Shown here: piece after piece, positions 3,885 to 41,801 of the stretch
Layout: each line of letters begins with the position of its first letter
How positions within the stretch are numbered: the first letter of the stretch is position 1
Virus record (IMG/VR): IMGVR_UViG_3300043219_000161
Location: 1 to 42,774 of that record
From: a virus
Reading direction: 5' to 3' (one strand)
Length of the DNA: 42,774 nucleotides
Notes under the pieces: generated by a model
Told to the model about the DNA's origin: nothing
Databases searched by the model: none
What the model saw: the letters and a program-made list of their open reading frames with translations, nothing else
Program-made: the position numbers and the translations under genes

Positions 3885-3988
3885 TACAAACCTCTCCTTT
3901 TAATATACCGTGAAACCGCCCCAAAGCAAAGAGACGCTATAACTCGCTGATCTCTTTGGGGTGGGTTGTTGAAGTCTGTGAGTTTCAT
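3884..3988 (-). CDS. First small ORF of the leftward early unit, 34 aa, with a hairpin inside
   Basis: The ATG at 3988 follows TTAAGGATCGACAAG, the same leader sequence used by other leftward genes, and starts about 26 bases after the predicted transcription start. The peptide is basic (ends in YIKRRGL) and its stop overlaps the next start codon. The coding sequence contains a strong hairpin: AAAGAGA (3928-3934) with TCTCTTT (3951-3957) and CCCC (3919-3922) with GGGG (3958-3961). A coding leader with a stable hairpin is consistent with a leader peptide or mRNA stabiliser, but a genuine small protein is equally possible. Confidence 0.55.
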   Translation of the reverse strand: MKLTDFNNPPQRDQRVIASLCFGAVSRYIKRRGL

Positions 3989-6148: not shown

Positions 6149-6177
6149 TTGACAACAACTTTTCATTAAGTTAGTAT
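6149..6177 (+). promoter_or_regulatory. Sigma70-like promoter before the structured leader
   Basis: TTGACA at 6149-6154 and TAGTAT at 6172-6177 are separated by 17 bases. The predicted start is near 6184, so the transcript begins about nine bases upstream of the first paired segment of the leader at 6193. Confidence 0.75.
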
Positions 6178-6192
6178 AGGTGTACAAATATA

Positions 6193-6285
6193 AGGTCTCG
6201 CAACCTCATCTATATTTAAAGTTTTTTACAGAAATGTAAGCCCAATTGTATCTTTTGCGAGACCTCTACAATTGGCTTTTTCTGT
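6193..6285 (+). promoter_or_regulatory. Pseudoknot-type attenuator leader or roughly 100-nt small RNA
   Basis: AGGTCTCGCAA (6193-6203) is perfectly complementary to TTGCGAGACCT (6255-6265). The latter lies in the 16-base loop of a second stem, CCAATTGTA (6242-6250) with TACAATTGG (6267-6275), which is followed by CTTTTTCTG. The second stem plus U tract is an intrinsic terminator. The first stem would form earlier during transcription and must either thread into a pseudoknot or hinder the terminator. The RNA could act as a regulated attenuator for the replication genes downstream or as a free-standing small RNA of about 100 bases. The complementarities are seen directly; the regulation is inferred. 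Confidence 0.65.
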
Positions 6286-6301
6286 ATTTTAAGGATTTTA
6301 T

Positions 6302-9895: not shown

Positions 9896-10027
9896 ATGAA
9901 TAACGACCACGAAACAACAGAAATAATCAAGCAAGCCGTGAAAACTGTTGCAATGCTGGGGGCTGCATTCGTGGCTGGGGTTATTGTACTGGTTTTGATT
10001 GGGATTGCAAAAAATAACTTGCAATAA
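9896..10027 (+). CDS. Tiny membrane protein, 43 aa
   Basis: An acidic N-terminal helix is followed by one transmembrane helix at residues 17-38 (TVAMLGAAFVAGVIVLVLIGIA). AAAGGAACAAAC precedes the ATG. It is the second of two consecutive small membrane proteins and the last gene before the structured leader at 10055. It could be a holin-like or host-membrane-modifying protein, but the lysis genes are elsewhere. Confidence 0.55.
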   Translation: MNNDHETTEIIKQAVKTVAMLGAAFVAGVIVLVLIGIAKNNLQ

Positions 10028-10054
10028 TTTCAAATGTATAGTAGATTTAAAAAC

Positions 10055-10172
10055 GAACTGGTAATTCAAATGAAATTTTATAACAACAATATAAACAAGC
10101 TCTTTAGTCCTAGCGACACGCTTTCTCTACCAGTTCAGCGGTTGAGCTTGTTTTTAAAGGAACTGGTAGTTC
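10055..10172 (+). promoter_or_regulatory. Second pseudoknot-type leader with a ribosome-binding-site switch
   Basis: GAACTGGTA (10055-10063) is complementary to TACCAGTTC (10128-10136), which lies in the loop of a stem formed by AACAAGCTC (10094-10102) and GAGCTTGTT (10144-10152). A run of five T follows at 10151-10155. A second copy, GAACTGGTAG (10160-10169), sits three bases before the ATG at 10173, overlaps the AAAGGA ribosome-binding site, and pairs even better with CTACCAGTTC (10127-10136). The middle segment can therefore pair with either copy: with the first, leaving the start site open, or with the second, closing it. The complementarities are seen directly; switching is inferred. Confidence 0.6.
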
Positions 10173-10442
10173 ATGAATAAAGCAATGGAAAAGAAGTTGA
10201 GGGAAAAGAGGGTTCCTGCGAATATGTATGGGGCGGCCAAGGTTGATCTTCTTCACAAGGAGTTAACGCAGAATAGAGGTTCTGGATGTACTAACCATAA
10301 GGCTGATTGTAGTTTTGTGGCTGAAGCTTGTAGCAAAGCTAGTGCCTGCTCAGTATGTTTATTCAATATTGGAAATGGTGAAGGCCGTAAACTATTCGAA
10401 TACTGGCGCAAAAATAAGTATAGAGGGGTGGTAGTATTATGA
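10173..10442 (+). CDS. Cys-rich hypothetical protein, 89 aa, under the second structured leader
   Basis: The basic N-terminus (MNKAMEKKLREKR) is followed by a Cys cluster (GCTNHKADCSF, then CSKASACSVCLF, about residues 39-63) that may form a zinc-binding fold. Its ribosome-binding site AAAGGA is part of a segment that can be paired in the leader RNA, so its translation may be controlled. The stop overlaps the next ATG. No family is recognised. Confidence 0.6.
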   Translation: MNKAMEKKLREKRVPANMYGAAKVDLLHKELTQNRGSGCTNHKADCSFVAEACSKASACSVCLFNIGNGEGRKLFEYWRKNKYRGVVVL

Positions 10443-10752: not shown

Positions 10753-11033
10753 GTGATACTATTTCAAAGAAGGTTAAAACACGTAAAGTTCATATGTGCT
10801 GGGGGTGTTGTGACACAATACCCTATGCTTCAACGGTTGAAAGATTGACTACTTTTGACGATGGCACCGTTGTCACTTGCTATTATTGTGATTGGTGTAA
10901 AGATATTCTACTGAAAACCCCTGTAGATTTCTACGAGTATGATGGCATCGCTTCCGGTGACTGTAAAGAGTGGTTCAAAGATTATCCAGAACACTACAAA
11001 GGAATCAAAGAAAAGGAGGCCAATAATGCCTAA
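10749..11033 (+). CDS. Zinc-ribbon protein, 94 aa
   Basis: CWGCCD (about residue 17) and CYYCDWC (about residue 45) are two Cys pairs separated by beta strands, as in a rubredoxin-like zinc ribbon. The ATG overlaps the previous TGA (ATGA) with GGGGGAGGGTGAG upstream. The C-terminus is charged. The role is unknown. Confidence 0.65.
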   Translation: MSDTISKKVKTRKVHMCWGCCDTIPYASTVERLTTFDDGTVVTCYYCDWCKDILLKTPVDFYEYDGIASGDCKEWFKDYPEHYKGIKEKEANNA

Positions 11034-11523
11034 ACTAACTGAGTTGAGAATGCGAGAGATACTAAGCACAATACTGAGAGATGATACCATGTTAGATTCA
11101 TACGACTGTGATGCTGTAACAGGTACTATTGTTAATCACCCAGAAATAAAAAGCCTGTTTGAGTGTGAAGGTAGAGAGGTTCTTTCTGTACATAAATCAG
11201 AGACTATGCAAGGTATTTTGAAGGGCATATGCCCTAGTTGTCCTTCAATAGTGTATACTAACGACCTTAATTATCTAAAGTGTTGTTGCGGTCAAAAACT
11301 AATCTGGCCTACGGAAGCCACCAAAGAGAGTGAGGTTGAGTATGAGGTGATTGAGTATGAAACAGCTATACTTATGGGGATCTCTATTTGTGAAACAAGA
11401 TGCGCTAATACTGGGAGCATGGTAAATTCACTAGCTTGTAAATCCTGCAAGTACTTCGCAGGTCACGAGGTTGAGGGTAAATCGGTTCGGTGTAAGCATA
11501 GGTTTAATGAAGGTGAGGCATAA
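11026..11523 (+). CDS. Cys-rich hypothetical protein, 165 aa
   Basis: I take the ATG at 11026 because AAAAGGAGG lies 5-6 bases upstream; a longer frame opened at 10939 lies inside the previous gene and lacks a ribosome-binding site. Two Cys clusters are visible: CPSCPS with CCCGQ, a zinc ribbon near the middle, and CETRCANTG with CKSCKYF near the C-terminus. The latter resembles the Cys arrangement of small phage proteins sometimes listed as zinc-finger. Function unknown. Confidence 0.6.
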   Translation: MPKLTELRMREILSTILRDDTMLDSYDCDAVTGTIVNHPEIKSLFECEGREVLSVHKSETMQGILKGICPSCPSIVYTNDLNYLKCCCGQKLIWPTEATKESEVEYEVIEYETAILMGISICETRCANTGSMVNSLACKSCKYFAGHEVEGKSVRCKHRFNEGEA

Positions 11524-13599: not shown

Positions 13600-13887
13600 A
13601 TGAAATACAGAAAAAAACCTGTAATAATTGAAGCTGTAAAATGGACCGGTCAAAATCATAGAGAAATGTTTGATTTTTTAACGGACACAAAAAACGAACC
13701 AATGCAAACATTTGATAAAAATTTCAGCATATCCCATTCAAATGGGATCGTTGATTTAACCATTAAAACATTGGAAGGTGAGCACATAGCATCAATAGGC
13801 GACATGATAATAAAGGGAGTTGCTGGCGAATATTACCCGTGTAAGCCTGATATTTTTGAACAAACATACACATATGAAGAGGGTTAA
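13600..13887 (+). CDS. Conserved phage protein of unknown function, 95 aa
   Basis: It begins MKYRKKPVIIEAVKW and ends in a G-D-M-I-I-K-G ... YYPCKPDIFEQTY pattern. These are the signatures of a very common small phage family whose members start MKYRKKPVV(I)EA and carry a GD-(Y/W)-I motif. No activity is known. AATAAGGAATAAATA precedes the ATG. Confidence 0.7.
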   Translation: MKYRKKPVIIEAVKWTGQNHREMFDFLTDTKNEPMQTFDKNFSISHSNGIVDLTIKTLEGEHIASIGDMIIKGVAGEYYPCKPDIFEQTYTYEEG

Positions 13888-40326: not shown

Positions 40327-41484
40327 TTATCCTTTTATTACTGCTAATGGTGTTAATTCCACCAATATCTCACACAAGTCTTTCTGATTATCCATTACTA
40401 CATGAATATCTTTGTATGCACCTGGAGCTTCGTCAAGATCTTTTTTGCCTCTCATTGCGTGCAATACACCTTGATCATCCAATAACTTCTTTTCAGTCTC
40501 AAAATCTAATTCTCTTTGGGCTTGCTTTCTACCCATAGCACGACCCGCACCGTGAGAACACGACTCAAAAGAATCTTTATTACCTAACCCTCTAACAATG
40601 TAAGATTTTGTTCCTTGAGAACCTGGAATCATGCCAATTTCACCAACTTTAGCAGAAGTAGCGCCTTTACGATGAACCATAACATTCTTACCGAAATGAT
40701 TCTCCATTCTAGCATAGTTATGTGATTCATTAATCAGCTTAGAAGTAGGTATAACTCCGCAAACATCTTTAAACGACTCAACAATACGTTTCATCATTAA
40801 CTTTCTGTTAGCAAGTGCGAAATCTACACAAAAGTTCATTTCATTAATATAATCTAGAGCTAAAACGCAATCCATAGGAATGAACGCTAAATCAGTATCT
40901 TTCTCTACTTTTGAATACCAAAACTCATTTGATGCTTTGGCCTTATCATTGTAGAAGTCACAAACCTGTTTACCTAAATTCCTTGAGCCAGAGTGTATCA
41001 TTATCCATATGTAACCATCATCACCTTTCTGAATCTCTATAAAATGATTGCCACCGCCTAGAGTACCCAATGACTTTAACGCATTTTCCTTATGAAATTC
41101 CGCAACTGGTAGATTACCAAATTCACGATTAAATTCTCCTTCTTGTATTTCGCTATGTTTTTTGAACCCCACAGGAACACGACTACGAATTAAGCCCATT
41201 ACTTTCTTTAAGTCTTCAGTGGAAATATCTTTTAATGGCATTTGTAATGCGCACATACCGCACCCTATATCAACACCAACAGCATTAGGTATTACTACAC
41301 CTTCAGTAGCTAAAACACCACCTATAGGCATACCGTAGCCTTGGTGTGAATCGGGCATAATAGCAATATGACTATAAGTGAAAGGAAGATTCGCCATGTT
41401 TTTTGCTTGCTCTAAGGCCCCTTCTTCTAAATTATCTAACCACATCTTTATTGGTTTATTTGCATCAGTATTTACTTTCATCAT
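40327..41484 (-). CDS. rtcB: RtcB RNA ligase
   Basis: RtcB joins 2',3'-cyclic phosphate or 3'-phosphate RNA ends to 5'-OH ends using GTP and manganese. The family motifs are visible: MPDSHQGYGMPIGGV, NAVGVDIGCGM (metal Cys), LGGGNHFIEIQ, IHSGSRNLGK, and SCSHGAGRAMGR with the guanylated His (about residue 311). The 385-aa form is shorter than the E. coli enzyme but has all main motifs. It is the last gene of the leftward early unit and starts at the MazG-like stop (TAATGATG). Confidence 0.95.
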   Translation of the reverse strand: MMKVNTDANKPIKMWLDNLEEGALEQAKNMANLPFTYSHIAIMPDSHQGYGMPIGGVLATEGVVIPNAVGVDIGCGMCALQMPLKDISTEDLKKVMGLIRSRVPVGFKKHSEIQEGEFNREFGNLPVAEFHKENALKSLGTLGGGNHFIEIQKGDDGYIWIMIHSGSRNLGKQVCDFYNDKAKASNEFWYSKVEKDTDLAFIPMDCVLALDYINEMNFCVDFALANRKLMMKRIVESFKDVCGVIPTSKLINESHNYARMENHFGKNVMVHRKGATSAKVGEIGMIPGSQGTKSYIVRGLGNKDSFESCSHGAGRAMGRKQAQRELDFETEKKLLDDQGVLHAMRGKKDLDEAPGAYKDIHVVMDNQKDLCEILVELTPLAVIKG

Positions 41485-41801
41485 TAACCCTTTGTTACTA
41501 GTTTATCATGTAAAAATTCCCCATCCAACATCTTACCGTCACGCTTAGTATTCTTATCATACGCAAGTTGCAGACATTCTTCAGGAGTGAAATTATTTAT
41601 TTGGCATAGATTGATTATAACCGTTAAGCAGTCGCCTATCTCTGTTTTCCTATCGGCCTCACTCTCACATATAAACGCATCCCTAACCTCCTGAACCTCT
41701 TCAAATAGCTTCTCAGTCTGCTTCTCATTGGTTGCTGATTTGTAGAGGCCTTTTGCTCTCCAGTGGTTTATTGTTGCGAATTTTAGTAGCTCAAATGTCA
41801 T
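41484..41801 (-). CDS. MazG-like nucleotide pyrophosphohydrolase, 105 aa
   Basis: The segment EKLFEEVQEVRDA (E-E-x-x-E) followed by EIGDCLTVIINLC (E-x-x-D) is the metal-binding signature of the MazG/dUTPase-like all-alpha pyrophosphohydrolases. Phage MazG proteins may lower (p)ppGpp or remove unwanted nucleotides. A single-domain version of about 100 aa is normal for phages. It overlaps the rtcB start by one base. The start at 41801 has GTGGAAAAAGTAAT upstream. Confidence 0.8.
   Translation of the reverse strand: MTFELLKFATINHWRAKGLYKSATNEKQTEKLFEEVQEVRDAFICESEADRKTEIGDCLTVIINLCQINNFTPEECLQLAYDKNTKRDGKMLDGEFLHDKLVTKG

Follow-up and report, generated by a model that had tools for sequence, protein, structure and literature searches.

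We propose that the leader at 10055-10172 of the window (the whole stretch of DNA analysed here, 42,774 bp with a G+C content of 39%, from a tailed phage that encodes a terminase, a portal, a tape-measure protein and an endolysin) is an RNA switch that sits at the 5′ end of a phage mRNA and acts in cis. It would form a modular promoter-leader unit in which two copies of one short segment, A1 at the predicted start of the message and A2 over the ribosome binding site (RBS), compete for a single complementary segment, A′, held in the loop of a hairpin between them; we put the chances of this reading at about even. Judged from the sequence, the choice of the loop between message start and RBS probably decides translation of the gene behind it. 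The features that carry the proposal can be read from the DNA itself, namely the three segments, their co-conservation, the compensation in both pairings, the hairpin, the overlap with the Shine-Dalgarno sequence (SD) and the varied genes behind the leader.

Organisation of the 10055-10172 leader

The leader and its surroundings comprise the following features.

10018-10053, + strand: promoter-like block CTTGCAA ... AAATGTATAGTAGATTTAAAAA, invariant in the window and in two related phages, G001 and G002
10055-10063, + strand: A1, GAACTGGTA; GAACTGACA in G001, compensated
10070-10180, + strand: possible leader ORF of 36 codons, with a conserved ATG, running to the start of the next gene
10093-10102, + strand: 5′ arm of the hairpin; unrelated arms that still pair in G001 and G002
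10117-10142, + strand: conserved loop CACGCTTTCTCTACCAGTTCAGCGGT around A′, 25 of 26 bases the same in G002, where the stem arms differ
10128-10136, + strand: A′, TACCAGTTC, complementary to A1 and A2; TGTCAGTTC in G001
10144-10153, + strand: 3′ arm of the hairpin, with a T-run (10151-10155) at its end
10160-10169, + strand: A2, GAACTGGTAG, overlapping the SD AAAGGA (10156-10161) of the ATG at 10173
10173-10442, + strand: first gene behind the leader, encoding an 89-aa Cys/His-rich protein, 80% and 79% identical in G001 and G002, respectively

The positions of A1, A′ and A2 agree exactly with a preliminary description of this DNA, as does its claim that a third copy covers the AAAGGA site of the 10173 gene and is able to pair with A′; the complementarity of the three segments is exact. 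The hairpin has 10 perfect pairs (10093-10102 with 10144-10153) around a 41-nt loop containing A′, and its stem can be extended to 10090/10156 at the cost of one mismatch. The same description called this hairpin terminator-like, which holds in so far as there is a 10-bp hairpin with A′ in its loop, but the term is generous for a loop of 41 nt, and the 10093-10153 hairpin is absent from the list of our terminator scan, which covers loops of 3-8 nt only. The hairpin does not look like an intrinsic terminator or attenuator, as the 10-bp stem is A+T-rich, the loop is long and three T of the TTTTT at 10151-10155 lie inside the stem.

A chance origin of the triple is ruled out by shuffling, by the compensated homologues described below and by the background in unrelated DNA. 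When the 141-nt region was shuffled 20,000 times with its dinucleotides preserved, a 9-mer in the order X..X′..X arose once, and 9-mer triples no more than 140 nt apart number one in the window and one each in G001 and G002 (the homologous element), with none in 309 kb of unrelated viral loci. The same scan of a further relative, G004, returned near-palindromic TTACGTAA repeats only. A stem around A′ like that observed was reached by 3/1000 shuffles for the window, 2/1000 for G002 and 54/1000 for G001. Within each genome, each 9-mer is confined to its own element.

Concerted change of the three segments

Relatives of the 10173 gene were found in two IMG/VR genomes, at L001 in G001 (3300043219_000130) and at L002 in G002 (3300043171_000118), and in each of them the element lies 0.3-0.4 kb ahead of that gene. 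In G001 all three copies have changed in concert, from the GAACTGGTA type to GAACTGACA, giving the order GAACTGACA / TGTCAGTTC / GAACTGACA. The change, GGTA to GACA, preserves both pairings, with G-C becoming A-U and U-A becoming C-G in A1:A′ and A′:A2 alike. Across the three sequences 27 of 27 cells pair in each helix and slid registers all stay at or below 45%; with so few sequences the shuffle control for covariation is weak (65/500 and 50/500), and the change of A represents a single lineage. In G002 the A sequence is unchanged and the stem is AATAGACGC/GCGTCTATT as against AAACAAGCTC/GAGCTTGTTT in the window, while G001 has a third version, TTAGACCA/TGGTCTAA, such that the hairpin holding A′ is retained with three unrelated pairs of arms. 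A2 sits on the SD in all three leaders, and this RBS segment has a conserved, covarying alternative partner, the A′:A2 pairing being compensated in G001. The preliminary description turned on the copies being conserved together in relatives and on their variation being compensated, and both are found here; its picture of three segments competing for one partner, the third of them over the RBS, gains support from the same observations. Insertion of a mobile hairpin with target duplication was considered and set aside, as no transposase was identified nearby and the repeats change in concert.

Folding energies are compatible with a choice between states. The isolated A1:A′ and A′:A2 duplexes of this family come to -14 to -18 kcal/mol and the hairpin around A′ to a similar -12.5 to -16.4 kcal/mol. 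In ensemble folds, which exclude the pseudoknot by design, blocking A1 raised A′:A2 pairing in all three leaders (0.04 to 0.70, 0.01 to 0.13 and 0.96 to 0.999), and tying A1 to A′ raised exposure of the SD in all three, strongly in G001 only; in the G002 folds the hairpin is dominant and SD exposure is nearly unchanged. The stability of the whole window leader is unremarkable (z -0.96), and a switch need not be unusually stable.

The promoter-like block and the genes behind the leader

The block CTTGCAA ... AAATGTATAGTAGATTTAAAAA is invariant despite a different upstream gene in G001 and looks like a promoter from which the RNA would start at, or a few bases before, A1. It is weak by sigma-70 standards, with a TTGCAA-N12-TATAGT layout that we take to resemble activator-dependent middle promoters. 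Matches to the block were also found at L005, before a tRNA array, and at L066, within a gene, both without the element.

Neither Pfam nor PHROG gave a match for the product of the 10173 gene. This gene directly follows the leader in the window, whereas a YopX protein gene (G001) or the gene of a zinc-ribbon-like protein (G002) separates the leader from the relative of the 10173 gene, so that one leader stands before three different first genes. In part this may be due to genes having been inserted downstream of a leader that was inherited, and not to a leader that moved. Around 1 kb downstream of the leader is a fast-evolving family of Cys-rich proteins (window 10939-11523, L019 12362-12922), present as two tandem copies in G002 (L002 5243-5806 and 5803-6360) and as one in the others.

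A second family of leaders with the same topology

A search for loops with distant complements identified a minus-strand leader at 1269-1112 of the window. A hairpin with a matching complement also came up in G005, where the complement falls within coding sequence and the hairpin is an ordinary terminator.

1112-1269, - strand: second-family leader, same topology as that at 10055, with homologues in G001, G004 and G006
1258-1251, - strand: A1, AGGATCAA, in the loop of a small 5′ hairpin
1225-1215/1145-1135, - strand: long stem GAGTAACACAA/TTGTGTTACTC, with an inner hairpin
1166-1159, - strand: A′, TTGATCCT, in the big loop
before the ATG at 1117, - strand: SD/A2, AAAGGATC

Besides the window locus (-), members lie at L019 2667-2821 (-), L016 3861-4013 and L034 4798-4944. 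In these four sequences 99% of cells pair and 7 of 24 pairs have changed on both sides, a level of compensation that 0 of 500 shuffles reached. Three of the four also have altered arms in the 5′ hairpin that carries A1, and these arms pair. Covariation is stronger here than in the first family, and the A sequence itself hardly varies. In the window, G004 and G006 the SD can pair with A′ through 8-11 pairs (-10.7 to -15.1 kcal/mol); in the G001 leader this A2 pairing is lost. The first genes again differ: the window has a 52-aa ORF, G004 a homologue of the gene at 13600 of the window, G001 another small protein and G006 a YopX protein. A covariance model of the family recovered the four known members and nothing else convincing in 315 kb.

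No T-run follows the stem of the second family, and termination is therefore not a shared feature. This bears on the earlier suggestion that the element could affect both transcription and translation, which is unlikely as stated: the first-family hairpin is a poor intrinsic terminator, and A2 is made after the putative termination point, so that it cannot affect termination of its own transcript.

The 6193 element

The preliminary description likened the 10055 leader to a second site in the window, around 6193.

6149-6290, + strand: related layout without A2, with a TTGACA promoter-like sequence; homologue at L019 7006-7185 (G004)
6194-6203, + strand: A1, in the loop of a 5′ hairpin
6255-6264, + strand: A′, in the loop of a long hairpin

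The layout is kissing-loop-like, with two hairpin loops. In the G004 copy A1 and A′ are identical and the arms of the 5′ hairpin have changed jointly and still pair; that copy stands directly upstream of an apparent replication-initiator gene (by sequence reading), and in the window an HNH gene lies between the element and the replication-initiator gene. The A1/A′ half of the architecture is thus present at 6193 and the A2 half is not. The idea of a single covariance model for both elements fails, as the 10055 model does not match 6193; the two have a layout in common, no recognisable ancestry, and are not one family. In unrelated viral DNA a scan by layout only gives about one chance match for every 51 kb of strand, and since topology alone matches by chance, both the 6193 element and the minus-strand leader rest on their homologues. 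The expectation of a repeated device is nevertheless borne out, more by the minus-strand leader in its four phages than by 6193.

A model for the leader

In our model the RNA would start at or just before A1, and the hairpin just upstream of the RBS would present A′ in its loop. Because A1 is transcribed first, A1:A′ should form first and translation would be on: this loop-to-5′-end pseudoknot, with the SD free, would be the open state. Were A1 removed or occupied, A′ would pass to A2, and the A′:A2 helix, which would mask the SD and break the hairpin, would be the closed state in which translation is shut. Candidate triggers may include trimming of the 5′ end, a ribosome translating the leader ORF, or binding by a protein or a second RNA. 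That no 9-mer recurs outside its own element speaks for action in cis. Counting against a switch are the number of first-family members, which is three, the loss of the A2 pairing in the second-family leader of G001 and the lack of an A2 at 6193.

More tentatively, and as a reading less likely than not, we suggest that such leaders could be swappable promoter-leader cassettes placed before different genes, whose message is translated only while its 5′ end is intact or free, each leader having a private A1/A′/A2 address that evolves in concert and avoids cross-talk. Should the switch work as modelled above, the state of the mRNA 5′ end would be tied to translation via one short loop, and a recurrent module whose pairing sequence is specific to each site would give simple, separate control of each phage operon. 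Such leaders would furthermore amount to a natural set of orthogonal RNA parts, and three-strand layouts like P4 seqA-CI-seqC would be more widespread than curated RNA families show.

Alternative explanations

We consider it unlikely that the leader works in trans as an antisense device of the P4 CI RNA, P1 C4 or Gifsy-1 IsrK type, in which a short RNA ending at the hairpin would expose A′ and target A1 and A2 of other transcripts, from the same locus or a related phage. The order of segments is that of P4 seqA-CI-seqC and the logic of short and long transcripts that of IsrK, as far as these are set out in PMC4825925, and A varies in sequence from phage to phage, as would be expected of specificity groups. 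Such a device is at odds, however, with the weak terminator and with a second family that lacks the T-run; moreover, the elements have no Rfam match to known antisense families, no integrase, repressor or immunity gene was recognised among the proteins scanned (part of the ORFs), and the targets lie only in the same element.

Translational coupling, in which ribosomes translating a short peptide that begins just after A1 would traverse A′ and the hairpin and then re-initiate at the gene, with the pairings only barring independent initiation, strikes us as rather improbable. Its appeal comes from the leader ORF, which has a conserved ATG, is open to the gene start in all three phages (joint chance of about 0.008) and stops at -7 to +5 nt from the start codon, and from the contexts of A1 and A2, which are alike as far as the ATG. 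The peptide is not conserved, though, no strong SD precedes the leader ATG in the window or G002, and no comparable ORF was seen in the second family.

We have little confidence in a role as a 5′-end stabiliser, whereby the pseudoknot would protect the mRNA from decay at its 5′ end, the SD match being secondary. Such a role would suit the placing of A1, which in each of the three layouts is where the RNA is predicted to begin, and the retention of A1 and A′ where A2 is lost (G001 second family) or lacking (6193), but it leaves the concerted change of A2 with A1 and A′ in the first family unexplained. Finally, we regard it as very improbable that the copies, two in direct and one in inverted orientation by the promoter-like block, are DNA operators that a repressor or activator binds and that change along with that protein, since for all the joint change of the copies and the closeness of the block, the middle copy is always inverted and always in a hairpin with arms conserved only as a pair, one copy is always on the SD, the A1-A2 spacings of 105, 88 and 91 nt are out of helical register and the sites are not palindromic.

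Comparison with known systems

We return to the cis-acting switch, which we file as a variant of the RBS-masking RNA switches and not as a member of the P4, IsrK or IncI systems; nearest to it by layout are P4 seqA-CI-seqC, IsrK-orf45 and the IncI repZ pseudoknot. In the T4 transcripts of genes e, soc and 49, early and late, a hairpin masks the RBS depending on where the transcript starts. Here the start is predicted upstream of A1, and promoter and read-through transcripts would therefore both carry all three segments, unlike in T4. In the IncI repZ switch a pseudoknot competes with RBS masking and a leader ORF, the translation of which opens the switch, lies upstream; the possible leader ORF of the 10055 type is open in three of three phages. 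Differences are that repZ serves control of plasmid replication with a separate antisense RNA and has no sequence match here, and that the competing strand in our leader is the 5′ end of the mRNA. The antisense segments of phages P1 and P7 (C4) are complementary to an RBS-containing region; no Rfam match to C4 is present here, and the order and size of the segments differ. The IncI (ColIb-P9) switch is cited in passages of PMC10724649 and PMC10286972, and C4 (RF01695) is among the families listed in PMC2864571.

P4 immunity relies on a promoter-proximal leader and the CI RNA (seqB), which is complementary to an upstream seqA and a downstream seqC, according to the account in PMC4825925. Common to that system and the 10055 element is a phage leader whose middle segment has a complementary copy on either side, but P4 uses a processed RNA acting in trans and premature termination, whereas here the hairpin presenting A′ in its loop adjoins the SD, which A2 partly covers. 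In the Salmonella prophage Gifsy-1, alternative leader pairings at IsrK/orf45/anrP govern the RBS and a coupled small upstream ORF, again as outlined in PMC4825925, and the 10055 leader similarly has alternative pairings at the RBS and a possible leader ORF. As the system is presented there, however, IsrK is a short trans-acting RNA whose helices measure about 30 nt; there is no sequence match, and a second copy at the 5′ end of the RNA is not part of that account. Of a terminated short RNA of the IsrK type, the stem and T5 are seen, but with a loop of 41 nt, outside the 3-8 range of the scan.

Distribution and further observations

Known members number three in the first family and four in the second, all in one small group of metagenomic phages. 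The 10055 element has no homologue, only short chance matches, among 50,697 phage records or plasmids, and a search of IMG/VR for the A′-T5-A2 pattern returned 33 loci, with the full element only in the two known relatives; G004 is without it and has other small genes at that place. Protein-guided scans of GTDB genomes for a host found nothing. For the elements Rfam gave no hit at gathering score and none plausible at E up to 5-10, and the covariance models of C4 and IsrK had no gathering-score match in the window and none at the elements up to E 5-10. The earlier suggestion of a new RNA family can be kept as a candidate motif without an Rfam match, but one with only three and four known members in a single small phage group.

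Several other features of these genomes were observed. Genes for an RtcB-like RNA ligase and a MazG-like pyrophosphatase lie side by side at 40327-41801 (-) of the window. L001 1455-1900 and L034 1-388 (-) are stretches of around 390-430 nt without a clear gene that are 88% identical in two phages, have no Rfam match and possibly represent a large non-coding RNA. In G001 the stretch lies behind a TTGACAACAACTTTTCATTAAGTTA promoter-like sequence, the same as at the 6193 element, and is followed by a methyltransferase-like gene. Finally, a leader region at 3888-3988 (-) of the window, preceded by a strong promoter-like site at 4049-4021, is 92-97% identical in G001 and G004 and contains the overlapping alternative hairpins CCCCAAAGAGA / TCTCTTTG / CTTTGGGG.
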